Of a DNA stretch of 64,000 bases, positions 24,248 through 35,223 are shown in pieces. Position 1 is the first letter of the stretch. Every line of letters begins with the position of its first letter. Made by a program: the position numbers and the translations under genes. Source of the stretch: Alphaproteobacteria bacterium (GTDB taxonomy: Bacteria; Pseudomonadota; Alphaproteobacteria; SMXQ01); the NCBI GenBank assembly GCA_009380075.1, contig WHSO01000005.1, positions 22,646 through 86,645 of the forward strand, written 5' to 3'. The notes beneath the pieces were generated by a model. That model saw nothing but the letters and a program-made list of their open reading frames with translations. It did not search any database and was not told where the DNA came from.

Positions 24248-24754
24248 ATGACCGACCAATTCGATCTGGTACCCGAAGCCGCCGCCGCGGCCGAGGCGGC
24301 CGCCAAGGGCAAGGACGTCGAGTTCCATTCGGAGACCAGCGTCGGCTACCTGCTGCGCGATACCTACCGCGTCTTCACCCGGGTCCTTCAGGCGCGTATC
24401 TCCACCCACGGCGTGACCATCGGCCAGTGGTATTTCCTGCGGGTGCTGTGGGACGAGGACGGGCTCACCCAGCGCGAACTGTCCCAGCGTGTCGGCATGA
24501 TGGAGCCGACCACGGTCACCGCCCTCAACGGCATGGAAAAACGCGGCTACGTCAGGCGCGTCCGCAACACGGACGACAAGCGCAAGGTCAACATCTACCT
24601 GACCGACCGCGGCCGTGCCCTTCGCAACATCCTGCTGCCGCACGCCATCGACGTGAACGTGCGCGCCGTGGCCGGCGTGCCGCTCGCCGACGTGGAGACG
24701 CTGCGTCGCACGCTCCATACGATGAAGCGCAACCTTTACGGCCTCGCCCCCTAG
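24248..24754 (+). CDS. MarR-family transcriptional regulator
   Basis: GQWYFLRVLWDEDGLTQRELSQRVGMMEPTTVTALNGMEKRGYVRRVRNTDDKRKVNIYLTDRGRAL. Confidence 0.93.
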   Translation: MTDQFDLVPEAAAAAEAAAKGKDVEFHSETSVGYLLRDTYRVFTRVLQARISTHGVTIGQWYFLRVLWDEDGLTQRELSQRVGMMEPTTVTALNGMEKRGYVRRVRNTDDKRKVNIYLTDRGRALRNILLPHAIDVNVRAVAGVPLADVETLRRTLHTMKRNLYGLAP

Positions 24755-27287: not shown

Positions 27288-27313
27288 GCGTGCCACTGAG
27301 CGCGGAGGCGCAG

Positions 27314-27418
27314 ATGCTTGAGCTCAAGATGTGGATCCGGGGGCACAAGACCCTGGCAGCGTTCATTATTTTCGCGCTGGTGCTGACCCTCGGCCTGCTC
27401 TTCAATCACGACCTGTAG
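27314..27418 (+). CDS. Putative 34-aa single-pass membrane peptide
   Basis: MLELKMWIRGHKTLAAFIIFALVLTLGLLFNHDL; GGAGG 6 nt upstream of ATG; directly downstream of SDR on the same strand. Confidence 0.55.
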   Translation: MLELKMWIRGHKTLAAFIIFALVLTLGLLFNHDL

Positions 27419-27467
27419 GGCTGAAGCCATAGGCCCCGCGTCGTCCCGGCGGTGCCGGGCAGCAGCT

Positions 27468-30122
27468 TCAGGACGCTTTGGCAGGGGCACGGGCAGGCCG
27501 CGCGGCCGACGCCTGTGCCTGCCGGAGAACGTCGGACAATTCCTCAGCCAGCGTCTGCACGTGCGGCTGGGTCATGATTTCGTAGTGCCGGCCGGAGATC
27601 GGCCGGATCTCCAGGCAGCCCCGGATCAGCTTGTGCCATCCGTCGTGCTGATCGGCATGCGCCCAGGCGTACCGTTCCGCCTTGAACAGGACCGCGTCCC
27701 CGTCATAGGGACAAGGCTGGTAACTGCGCCGGATTATGTCATTGGCGGGCACGGGACGGCGCAGGAAGCGCGGCAGCGGCTTGCCGCGTGACTTGTAGAA
27801 TGCCCACGCGGCGGAATAGCTTTTCAAGCGCGCCCGCATATAAGTCATCTTCGCCAGGTTACGTGCGCGCAGCCACAGGTAGCCCGGAATCTTTGCCGCC
27901 GGTAAGGTCTTCAGGCGTTCCCGGTGGTGCGCGATCCAGTCGCGCAGCGTGACCTTCTGTCGGCCGTGGGCACTGTAGGTGTCGAACAGGGCGAGTAGGG
28001 CGACCGCATGGCCTGCCGCGCGGAGGTGCTGGGCCATGACGAAGGCGACGCGCCCGCCGAATGAATACCCACCGAGAAAATAGGGTCCCGACGGCTGGAC
28101 CTTGCGGATTTCACGGACGTAATGGGCCGCCATGTCGTCGATGCGCGTGAACGGCTCCTCCTTGCCGTCGAGCCCGCGGCACTGGATGCCGTAGAACGGC
28201 TGCGACTTGCCGAGGAACCGGGACAGGTCGCGGTAATTGAGAACCTGACCGTTACCGTCATGCACGCAGAAGAATGGCGGCTTGTCCCCCTTGGGTTGGA
28301 TCGGGACGAGACAGGGGGAGGGTATCGATTCCTCGATGCGTTGCGCCATCTTGGCTACGGTGCCGGCCTCGAACAGGACCGAACGGGGGAGACGCCGGTC
28401 CAGTTGCTTCTCGACGCGCAGGAACAGGTCGACCGCCTGCAGCGAATCGCCGCCGAGCAGGAAAAAATCCTCGTGCAGGCCGACGCGTTCGAGCCCGAGG
28501 GTGTCCGCCCACAGGCGTTGCAGCTTTCCTTCCAGCGCTGTGGGCTCACGGTCGTCGACGGCAACCGGTCTGGCCTTGGACGAATCCGTGACCAGTCCGA
28601 AGGCTTCGGCGAGATTCCGCCGTTGAATCTTTCCCGCGGCTCCCTTGGGAATTTCGTCAACGATGACAAACCGGCGCGGCACCTTGAACGTTGCCAGACG
28701 CCCGCGGAGGAATTTTGTCAAGATTTCATCGGTGAACTCTGCGCCTTGTGCCGGCACGACGGCGGCGGCGACCTCCTGCCCGAGCGTCGCGTGCGGCACG
28801 GGGAAAGTCACCGCCGTGGCAACGTCGGGATGATTCTCGAGCGCGCCGTCGATCTCGGACGGCGTGATCTTCTCGCCGCCGCGGTTGATGATGTCCTTGA
28901 TGCGTCCCGTGAGGGTCAGATAGCCGTCGCGGTCGATAGTCCCCTCGTCACCGGTACGGAACCAGCAGCCGACGAAACACGTCTCATTCGCGTCGTCGTC
29001 ATTTTCATAGCCGGTGAAGATGCCGGTGCTGTCCACCACGACTTCGCCTGGCTCCCCCTGCGGGAGAAGCCAGTTGTCCGGCCCCATGATCGCGATGTCA
29101 CCGGCGACGGGGACTCCCACGGTGCCGGGTTTGCGCACGGCCGGCGGGAGCGGGGTTCCGCAGATGTGGCCGGTCTCCGTGCTGGCGTAAGTCGAGATGA
29201 CCGGCGCGCGGAAAAGCATTTCCAGTGCTTCGACGATCCGCGGGTCGAGATGACCGGATCCCGTCTTTACGAAGCGGAACCGGGCCTTCCGGATCGCGCC
29301 GACATGGTCTTCCGCTGCGGCGCAGATCGCATGGTGGAAAGTGTAGCTGCCGGTATACCAGGTCGGCGCCAGGGTTGTGACCAGACGGAAGAATGACTCC
29401 ACCGAGAATTCGGGGAGCGTCACCACGCTTGCGCCGGAAAACAGGGTGGCGCCGAGCGAGGTGTAGAGCCCGTGGCCGTGAAACAGCGGCATCAGGTTGA
29501 GGCAACGGTCGTCCGCCGTCATCGCCTGAGCCCTGACGTGGCGGGCAACCTTGGTCACGAGCTGCCGATGGGTGACGGGAACGATCTTGCTGTGCGACGT
29601 CGTGCCCGAGGTGGTCAGCACGAGGGCCAGATCATCCGGTTGCGCGGGACCGGGCCGAGCGGGCGTTCCGACGATGGAGCCCGCGCCGATCTCGATCAGG
29701 CCGGCGGTATCGCCCGCGGCGGGCTCGATCTCCAGAACCGGCAGGCCGATCTTTCGCGCGGCGACGCGGGCCGCCGTGTCGATGTCCGCGCTGATCGCGA
29801 TCGCCTGCACCTTCAGGTCGCGCAGGTAGAGGACGAACTCGCCGACCGAAAGGTCGGGGTTCATCGGAACCGCAACCGCGCTGTCCATGATACCGATGAT
29901 GAGTGCGGCCGTGGCCGCGTCGTTGGGGCCGACGGTCGCAATGCGGTCGCCGCGACCGAACCCCGCGACGTTGATCCGCTCATGGATGTGGTCCATCAGG
30001 CGCGCCAGCGCCGCATAGGTCAGAGGCGCCCGGTCTTCGGCGACGAGCGCCGGGGCATCCGGTGTCGCGCGGGCGTGCCGGCGGACGACGTCGGTGACGG
30101 TTTCTCTGGTGGGGATGGTCAC
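27468..30122 (-). CDS. NRPS-like adenylation - peptidyl carrier - thioesterase protein (A-T-TE, no condensation domain)
   Basis: 884 aa; LTTSGTTSHSKIVPVTH, YASTETGHICG, GRIKDIINRGGEKI (AMP-binding); DFFLLGGDSLQAVDL (PCP); GGYSFGGRVAF...FDTYS...GRHYEI (TE). GTG start. Confidence 0.92.
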   Translation of the reverse strand: MTIPTRETVTDVVRRHARATPDAPALVAEDRAPLTYAALARLMDHIHERINVAGFGRGDRIATVGPNDAATAALIIGIMDSAVAVPMNPDLSVGEFVLYLRDLKVQAIAISADIDTAARVAARKIGLPVLEIEPAAGDTAGLIEIGAGSIVGTPARPGPAQPDDLALVLTTSGTTSHSKIVPVTHRQLVTKVARHVRAQAMTADDRCLNLMPLFHGHGLYTSLGATLFSGASVVTLPEFSVESFFRLVTTLAPTWYTGSYTFHHAICAAAEDHVGAIRKARFRFVKTGSGHLDPRIVEALEMLFRAPVISTYASTETGHICGTPLPPAVRKPGTVGVPVAGDIAIMGPDNWLLPQGEPGEVVVDSTGIFTGYENDDDANETCFVGCWFRTGDEGTIDRDGYLTLTGRIKDIINRGGEKITPSEIDGALENHPDVATAVTFPVPHATLGQEVAAAVVPAQGAEFTDEILTKFLRGRLATFKVPRRFVIVDEIPKGAAGKIQRRNLAEAFGLVTDSSKARPVAVDDREPTALEGKLQRLWADTLGLERVGLHEDFFLLGGDSLQAVDLFLRVEKQLDRRLPRSVLFEAGTVAKMAQRIEESIPSPCLVPIQPKGDKPPFFCVHDGNGQVLNYRDLSRFLGKSQPFYGIQCRGLDGKEEPFTRIDDMAAHYVREIRKVQPSGPYFLGGYSFGGRVAFVMAQHLRAAGHAVALLALFDTYSAHGRQKVTLRDWIAHHRERLKTLPAAKIPGYLWLRARNLAKMTYMRARLKSYSAAWAFYKSRGKPLPRFLRRPVPANDIIRRSYQPCPYDGDAVLFKAERYAWAHADQHDGWHKLIRGCLEIRPISGRHYEIMTQPHVQTLAEELSDVLRQAQASAARPARAPAKAS

Positions 30123-30134
30123 GGGCGGGCACTC

Positions 30135-30183
30135 CTACGAACTACGAACTACGAACTACGAACTACGAACTACGAACTACGAA
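30135..30183. repeat. 7-bp simple tandem repeat, 7 perfect copies of CTACGAA (TTCGTAG on minus)
   Basis: Direct reading: (CTACGAA)x7, 49 bp, ends about 12 bp before the GTG start of the A-T-TE gene, with the AGGAG RBS at the repeat edge. Confidence 0.97.
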
Positions 30184-30255
30184 CGCACTCAGGAAATGGA
30201 CTAAAATGTCCCGCAAATTGTTCCCTTGCGCCGCGCAGATTCTTCAGAATAAGGG

Positions 30256-30267
30256 ATTAACGTTAAT
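30256..30267. promoter_or_regulatory. Perfect 12-bp palindrome ATTAACGTTAAT in divergent intergenic region
   Basis: Direct reading; lies between the A-T-TE gene (-) and TauD paralog B (+), in a locally AT-richer stretch. Confidence 0.45.
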
Positions 30268-30465
30268 GCTTTACTGTCGGTATGCAGGGAACTCATGGGC
30301 AGCCTGCACGCGCTGACTCCGCGCGGTGTTTTGCGGCGTAAACGCCCGATGATCGCGACCCCGTTGACGGTGCGGGGACGGAACTTCTATATTACTTAGA
30401 ATTCGTATGAATCTCGCGTCCAAGCCGGACGCAGCCGGGGGCCACCGCAGCCGGTGGAACGTGTC

Positions 30466-31353
30466 ATGGCCATCCAGCTCGCCGATTTCCCCGAAGTGAC
30501 CAAAGCGCCGCCGCGGGCGAAGACGTACAAGGGCGTCCAGGTCCTCCGCCACGATCCGTGCGGCGTCGAAATCCTTAACATTGATCTCGCCCAGCCGATG
30601 GCCGACGGGACCTTTCGGGCGGTCATGGACATCTGGCACCAGGGTCTCGTCATCTGTTTCCGCAACCAGGACCTCACGGCGGAGGACCAGCTCCGCTTCG
30701 GCCGCCGAGTAGGCGAGCTGTCGGTGATCCATACGCCGGAATTCACCGGCGAGGATCCCTCGATCATGTACATCTCCAACGTCAAGAAGAACGGCGAATT
30801 CGTCCACGCGTTGCCGATCGGCGAGATGATGTTCCACATCGACCAGTGCTACCAGCCGCGGCCGGCCAAGGCGACGATCCTGTACGCGATGAAGATTCCG
30901 AAGACCGGTGGCAATACATTGTTCTGCGATCTTCAACGCGCCTACGACACGCTGGACGAGGAGACCAAGGCGCGCATCGCCGGCCGCAGGGTCATGCATG
31001 TCTACGACTACGACGCCGGCGCGACGCACACGGCGGCGGCTGTGGCGGACGATGCGCCGCGTTACGTCCATCCATTGGTGCGGACGCATCCCGTGACCGA
31101 GCGCAAGTGCCTTTACGTCAATCGCCTGATGACGCGCGAAGTGGTGGGGATGGACAAGGCCGAGAGCGATGCGCTGCTGGCGCGCCTGTTCGACCACATG
31201 GAGAACCCGGAATTCGTTTACGAGCACCGCTGGAGGCTGGGCGACCTCCTGATGTGGGACAACCGCTGCACGGCCCATGCGCGGCGCGATTTCGATCCGG
31301 AGCAGGAACGGGTCATGCGCCGCCTTACGGTGCTCGGCGAGGCGCCCGCCTGA
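30466..31353 (+). CDS. TauD/TfdA-family Fe(II)/2-oxoglutarate dioxygenase (paralog B)
   Basis: GEMMFHIDQCYQPRPAKATILYAMKIPKTGGNTLF...LYVNRLMTREV...MWDNRCTAHARRDFDPEQERVMRR. Start may be GTG 30454 or ATG 30466. Confidence 0.93.
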   Translation: MAIQLADFPEVTKAPPRAKTYKGVQVLRHDPCGVEILNIDLAQPMADGTFRAVMDIWHQGLVICFRNQDLTAEDQLRFGRRVGELSVIHTPEFTGEDPSIMYISNVKKNGEFVHALPIGEMMFHIDQCYQPRPAKATILYAMKIPKTGGNTLFCDLQRAYDTLDEETKARIAGRRVMHVYDYDAGATHTAAAVADDAPRYVHPLVRTHPVTERKCLYVNRLMTREVVGMDKAESDALLARLFDHMENPEFVYEHRWRLGDLLMWDNRCTAHARRDFDPEQERVMRRLTVLGEAPA

Positions 31354-34050: not shown

Positions 34051-35223
34051 CTATTCGGCGGCGGCGCCTTTCGCGGCGGGACGGAAGGCGAATTCCTCCT
34101 TCACCCGCGGGTACACTTCCCTGGCGAAGAGCGTCATGCTCTTGACCGTTTCGTCATGGGTGACGAAACCGGCTTGCTGCATCATCAGCAACTGGCCGAA
34201 GCCGCCGACCAGACCGTAGAAGCGCTTGATCTGCTTGAACACCTGGTCGGGCGTGCCGCAGATCAGCACGCCCTGTTCCTTGAGGTAGTCGAGTCCGCGC
34301 GTGCGCACGGCATCGGTACGGCCGGTGTACTTGCCCTTCAGCGCCTGGACGTTGAAGGCCACCGGCACGTAGCCCGGCGGGTTGCGGAACTGCGGCGGGG
34401 TCTTTGCATGCAGGTACCATGACAGCTTCTGGGCGAGCGCTTCGGCCTCGGCCTCGGTGTCCGCAGTCGCCACCAGCGGCATGTAGGCAATGTGACGGCG
34501 GGTTTCCTCCGGGTCGGAATAGATGCTGGAGGAGCGGTAGGCGTCGAACATCTCCTTCACCTTCTCGTGCGGCTGAAGGAACATGGCGAAGGTGAAGCCC
34601 CGCCGGGCTACTTCCTTGATGTTCTCCTTGTCCGACGAGCCGGTGATCCACACCGGCGGGTGCGGCTGCTGGTACGGGCGCGGCCAGATGTTGACCTGGC
34701 GCTTGTGCCAGAACTTGCCTTCGAAGTTGAACGGACCGTCGTGGGTGGTCCAGGCCTTGACGCAGAGGTCGATGCCCTCCCATAGGCGCTCCAGCGTCTG
34801 GGTCGGGTTGGTGTTGGCGGCGAAGGTTTCATACGGTACGCCGCGCACGAAGCCGCTGTCGAGGCGCCCGCGCGAGATCACGTCGATCATCGCCATTTCC
34901 TCGGCGACGCGCACCGGGTCGGCGCGGTTGGCCATTGGGTTGCCGAGGATGCAGATGCGCGCGCGCCTGGTCTGACGGGCCAGGATCGCCGCCGCCAGAG
35001 GCGCCGCGACATCGGTGCAGGTCGCGGTCTGGTGATGCTCGTTGAGCATAATGTCGAGTCCGAGCTCGTCGGCGATGACGTGCTCGTCGAGGTAGCGCTG
35101 GTAGAGGTCGGCGCCGGTCTTCGGATCGTAATACTTGTTGGGGATGCTGACCCGCACCGAATCGATCGTATCGAGGGCGGGCAGATGGGGGTATGGCATC
35201 TCGGTGAAGTGCCAGCAGCGCAT
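34051..35223 (-). CDS. LLM-class flavin-dependent oxidoreductase (luciferase-like monooxygenase)
   Basis: LGLDIMLNEHHQTATCTDVAAPLAAAILARQTRRARICILGNPMANRADPVRVAEEMAMIDVISRGRLDSGFVRGV. Confidence 0.93.
   Translation of the reverse strand: MRCWHFTEMPYPHLPALDTIDSVRVSIPNKYYDPKTGADLYQRYLDEHVIADELGLDIMLNEHHQTATCTDVAAPLAAAILARQTRRARICILGNPMANRADPVRVAEEMAMIDVISRGRLDSGFVRGVPYETFAANTNPTQTLERLWEGIDLCVKAWTTHDGPFNFEGKFWHKRQVNIWPRPYQQPHPPVWITGSSDKENIKEVARRGFTFAMFLQPHEKVKEMFDAYRSSSIYSDPEETRRHIAYMPLVATADTEAEAEALAQKLSWYLHAKTPPQFRNPPGYVPVAFNVQALKGKYTGRTDAVRTRGLDYLKEQGVLICGTPDQVFKQIKRFYGLVGGFGQLLMMQQAGFVTHDETVKSMTLFAREVYPRVKEEFAFRPAAKGAAAE

Follow-up and report, generated by a model that had tools for sequence, protein, structure and literature searches.

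A perfect heptanucleotide array lies directly upstream of an intact NRPS-like gene in this genome of an uncultured alphaproteobacterium and raises the question whether the number of its units controls the expression of the gene or is neutral for it. In the window, i.e. the whole 64-kb stretch of DNA that was analysed, the period-7 run of the unit CTACGAA covers 50 bp and comprises 7.1 copies (7.14) with zero mismatches, a copy number known from one genome of the species. Seven flawless copies had already been counted by a sequence-only reading of this DNA; the count was confirmed and the perfect run delimited (Table 1). The assertion that nothing similar occurs in the window also held, as no second period-7 run is found there and the array reaches a Tandem Repeats Finder score of 100 compared to 61 for the next best repeat. 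Tandem copies of CTACGAA/TTCGTAG are absent from the remainder of the 3.54-Mb genome, both as exact copies and with 3 mismatches in 21 bases, and a search of another 385 genomes from the class found no TTCGTAG array. In 460 kb of DNA from the same genome (13% sampled), the array is the sole period-7 run of at least 18 bp, and in third-order Markov simulations of equal length such runs reach 17 to 20 bp. The array is a long simple sequence repeat (LSSR) of the heptanucleotide type and far beyond chance. Heptamers are described as the commonest class of long SSRs in most prokaryotic genomes, for which slippage is given as the explanation (Mrazek et al. 2007, as cited in PMC4679880), and the kind of array found here, a heptanucleotide microsatellite in a 5' leader, is already known.

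Table 1. Features of the array locus (positions in the window)
Feature	Position	Strand	Basis or remark
Heptanucleotide array, perfect, G(TTCGTAG)7, 50 bp	30135..30184	minus	run scan and simulation
A-T-TE protein gene, 884 aa, intact	27468..30122	minus	Pfam domains and core motifs
Shine-Dalgarno (SD) AGGAG	30132..30136	minus	AG from last array unit, GAG from flank
GAGTGC direct repeat, adjoining array 3' edge	30129..30134	minus	includes GAG of SD
GAGTGC direct repeat, adjoining array 5' edge	30185..30190	minus	target-duplication-like
Lineage-specific insert, ~3.1 kb (A-T-TE gene, array, upstream region)	27288..30363		synteny; right edge approximate, ~30360
TauD promoter-like site TTGACG-18-TATATT	30364..30393	plus	kept in sister species; ~180 bp from array
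TauD/TfdA-family dioxygenase, divergent neighbour	30454..31353	plus	neighbour gene

The gene that follows the array encodes a protein with AMP-binding, carrier and thioesterase domains (Pfam), the composition of an NRPS-like A-T-TE protein, and all core motifs were found, namely TSGTT, FRTGD, GRIKD, PKGAAGK, GGDSL, GYSFG and the C-terminal GRHYEIM. The nearest solved structures of its adenylation part are oxalate-CoA ligases. Seven other long copies (46-79% identity) and nine contig-end fragments are present in the same genome, several of them in tandem, and the sister species possesses no A-T-TE relatives, only ligase relatives of ~520 aa at 44%. Judged from these comparisons, the A-T-TE family is large and lineage-specific and has a putative oxalate-CoA-ligase-like A domain. 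With the gene at 27468-30122, the family counts eight long copies besides the nine fragments, and its other members were recorded at eleven loci on eleven contigs of the genome; tandem copies seem to break the assembly. Where the 5' region of a paralogue could be read, no heptamer array precedes the gene, and the upstream regions of the paralogues do not align with that of the gene studied here; for all copies readable in this way, a regulatory array common to the family was thus ruled out. The interval between the SDR and A-T-TE genes further contains a small ORF (27314-27418) for a hydrophobic peptide of 34 aa (MLELKMWIRGHKTLAAFIIFALVLTLGLLFNHDL), which has no convincing relative among the loci compared.

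The surroundings of the gene are conserved. In one genome of the same genus and two of the same family, the gene order is MarR - class II aldolase - (TauD) - SDR - TauD, followed by flavin reductase, hydrolase and a luciferase-like gene, and SDR and TauD are ~100-140 bp apart. In the studied genome, these two genes, adjacent in the relatives, are separated by the A-T-TE gene, the array and a further ~180 bp; the array is therefore part of a lineage-specific insert. An orthologue of the A-T-TE gene was not found in the same genus, and the insert is absent from the cluster in genus and family, so that the genomes compared offer no orthologous array site. The insert ends shortly before the TauD promoter, and this promoter can be recognised in the congener, too (TTGACGG...TATATT.CTTAGAATTCGTATGA). 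In the stretch 30364-30410, this promoter is followed by CTTAGAATTCGTATGA, conserved in the sister species, which is a candidate operator, perhaps for the MarR-family-like regulator encoded at 24248-24754. In the congener and one of the family relatives, two luciferase-like monooxygenase genes stand in tandem where the window has one (34051-35223).

On the minus strand, the 3' end of the array passes into GAGTGCCCGCCCGTG, and the SD motif AGGAG is followed by a 9-nt spacer and the start codon GTG at 30122-30120; the sequence-only reading had placed AGGAG and the GTG correctly. The edge of the array is located 12 nt before the start codon. The junction with the array permits an SD/anti-SD duplex of -6.8 kcal/mol, compared to -2.2 kcal/mol if the flanks are joined at GAGTGC and the array is absent. 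The SD is identical for any unit number of at least one, and its distance to the start codon does not depend on the copy number. Predicted SD accessibility ranges from 0.03 to 0.12 over 2 to 15 copies, and from 3 to 15 copies the accessibility of both SD and start codon is low and nearly flat; these values are RNA folding estimates, which predict translation poorly. Since the duplex energies differ this much and the folding is nearly flat, the presence or absence of the array is predicted to have a larger effect than the gain or loss of one unit. Compared with its shuffles, the leader has less structure (z +2.26).

The best promoter candidate upstream of the array is weak (8/12 match) and ends ~116 nt before the GTG, and the array itself contains no -10-like hexamer, the best match being 3/6, which ruled it out as a promoter element. 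On these grounds, transcription most likely starts upstream of the array, which would then be situated in the transcribed leader. All three minus-strand frames are closed by a TAG within the array; gain or loss of units can therefore not shift the reading frame, and a translational ON/OFF frame switch was ruled out.

The proposal that the array is a phase-variation switch is supported in part. The array is a plausible substrate for slippage, being pure and placed in the probable leader of an intact gene, for which hmw1A provides a precedent (PMC8262952), and its position before such a gene is one of the features of a contingency locus. However, a frame shift is excluded, the SD-start spacing is copy-independent, predicted SD accessibility stays within the low range given above, the readable paralogues lack an array, and only 1 of 112 TTCGTAG arrays of other genomes occupies a comparable position at a start. 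We favour, with a probability of roughly 0.62, a heptanucleotide microsatellite that was grown by slippage in the leader of a recently inserted A-T-TE gene and is now neutral or nearly neutral for expression. According to this reconstruction, the A-T-TE gene would have been inserted recently into a conserved catabolic cluster, a seed or short insert would have been placed at a GAGTGC site, and the array would have grown by replication slippage. The last TTCGTAG unit would donate the AG of AGGAG, a static contribution at any copy number, and each unit gained or lost would alter the length of the untranslated leader upstream of the SD by 7 nt. Any copy-number effect would be graded at most, of the hmw1A kind rather than ON/OFF, and probably small; neutral or near-neutral status is favoured over a mild rheostat. 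What counts against neutrality is that chance would rarely place an array exactly at the SD of an intact gene, and selection could also account for a pure array where the 13% of the genome sampled contains no other heptamer run.

Should the locus act as a rheostat after all, slippage at a high rate would change leader length or mRNA level and thereby cause heritable cell-to-cell variation in A-T-TE output. We consider this unlikely, although the pure array in the probable leader of an intact gene would suit it and a related system has been described in Haemophilus influenzae, where the copy number of heptamers downstream of promoter P2 tunes expression of hmw1A, which is high with 13-14 and low with 20-24 copies (PMC8262952). 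Like the repeats of hmw1A and hmw2A, the array is a pure 7-bp tandem and a slippage substrate, and it probably lies, as they do, in the interval between a promoter and the coding region. However, hmw1A/hmw2A have 13-24 copies in the cited strains and constructs, two mapped promoters and an expression that was measured to fall as copies are added (PMC8262952), whereas the array studied here has 7 copies of another unit, precedes an enzyme gene and is known from sequence alone. Its shortness, the predicted SD accessibility that is hardly altered by a one-unit change, the array-free paralogues with readable 5' region and the lack of other such loci in the sampled part of the genome all argue against a rheostat. 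Moraxella uspA2 (AGAT) and Neisseria nadA likewise carry an SSR 5' of the start, which acts without a frame shift and whose copy number alters expression, as has been measured; these are, however, tetranucleotides or promoter-spacing mechanisms of surface-protein genes (PMC4679880 introduction, PMC2791445). If copy number did tune the A-T-TE gene, leader-SSR rheostats would reach beyond the well-studied, host-associated genes for surface proteins and include a biosynthetic-type enzyme of an alphaproteobacterium that is not among these models.

The two edges of the array could point to another origin. Both are abutted exactly by GAGTGC, and the pair resembles a target duplication, a pattern that was spotted post hoc. 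A ready-made array could thus have been inserted at a staggered break at GAGTGC, with duplication of 6 bp, rather than grown in place. Random pairings of flanks from 103 arrays of other genomes give an abutting match of at least 6 in ~0.1 per 103, and GAGTGC occurs 11 times in the window, both strands counted, which speaks for such an insertion. It is nevertheless improbable, and more so than a rheostat: coincidence fits as well, as 50 + 6 = 56 = 8 x 7, and the relatives lack the whole gene and hence an empty site for comparison. Among other TTCGTAG arrays, target duplication was seen just in compound arrays and at one further locus, and since most others lack the pattern, it was ruled out as a general trait of these arrays. 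A little less probable again is that the TTCGTAG repeats, in mRNA or DNA, serve as binding sites for a translation-controlling protein (S1, Csp, Csr-like or a regulator), a role that has been proposed for the TAACTGA repeats of marine Beggiatoaceae (PMC4679880). The array shares with the TAACTGA sets of marine Beggiatoaceae, Cyanobacteria and Bacteroidetes that heptamer direct repeats are placed directly before starts and that the unit occurs in distant phyla, and a leader with less structure than its shuffles would suit such binding. TAACTGA, however, occurs in 169 sets in one genome, with 2-6 copies, mostly in place of a canonical SD (PMC4679880), whereas the array here is single, consists of a different unit and completes a canonical SD. 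TTCGTAG is rarely found at starts in other genomes, and a single array in 3.54 Mb does not make a regulon, which ruled out a TAACTGA-type network. An even smaller chance is left for a combined course of events, in which a ready-made array arrived at GAGTGC with the 6-bp duplication, provided a newly acquired A-T-TE gene with its SD and today acts as a copy-number rheostat, the heptamer being seeded across phyla by an unrecognised process. An assembly or binning artefact is very improbable: the genome is a draft of 162 contigs, but a 50-bp array is below the usual read length, its flanks are unique, the contig bears the syntenic cluster of the family, and paralogues of the gene are present elsewhere in the same genome. 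As things stand, the locus is a clean example of a heptamer array whose edge donates part of an SD.

The locus also draws attention to a heptamer whose arrays are found again in many phyla. GTDB genomes carry (TTCGTAG)4 in 111 stretches, among them those of Cyanobacteria (Hormoscilla), Omnitrophota, Planctomycetota, Bacillota, Bacteroidota, Verrucomicrobiota, Actinomycetota and others. A crude ORF call places 33 of 112 arrays in ORFs, 47 in plain noncoding DNA and ~24 near stop codons or gene ends; 8 of the 112 are near starts in either orientation, and the single comparable case mentioned above has the orientation found here and is followed by a start codon within 30 nt. All 33 ORF-internal arrays are read on the CTACGAA strand, because the opposite strand has stops. 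In viral contigs, three TTCGTAG units in tandem gave 3 matches, compared to 12, 0 and 4 for three control units of the same composition and 100 for TAACTGA; a mobile origin seen in viruses was ruled out, as TTCGTAG is no commoner there than shuffled units. A TTCGTAG array was not found in the relevant literature, where the lone text match is an unrelated sequence string. Intergenic heptamer arrays of proteobacteria and cyanobacteria have been described for Xanthomonas and Nostoc (GGGAATC and GGGGA(C/T)T); however, these SSRs are G-rich, form quadruplexes and occupy hundreds of loci (PMC4692102), whereas TTCGTAG is not G-rich and is present once in the genome studied here. Several of the TTCGTAG loci in other genomes have peculiarities of their own. 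At seven loci, the arrays are compound, with one heptamer passing into a related one, and at four loci the same or similar flanks recur at several sites of one genome. Repeated flanks were also observed at TTCGTAG loci of Hormoscilla, at least four in number, and all these arrays with recurring flanks look as if they belonged to a dispersed element.
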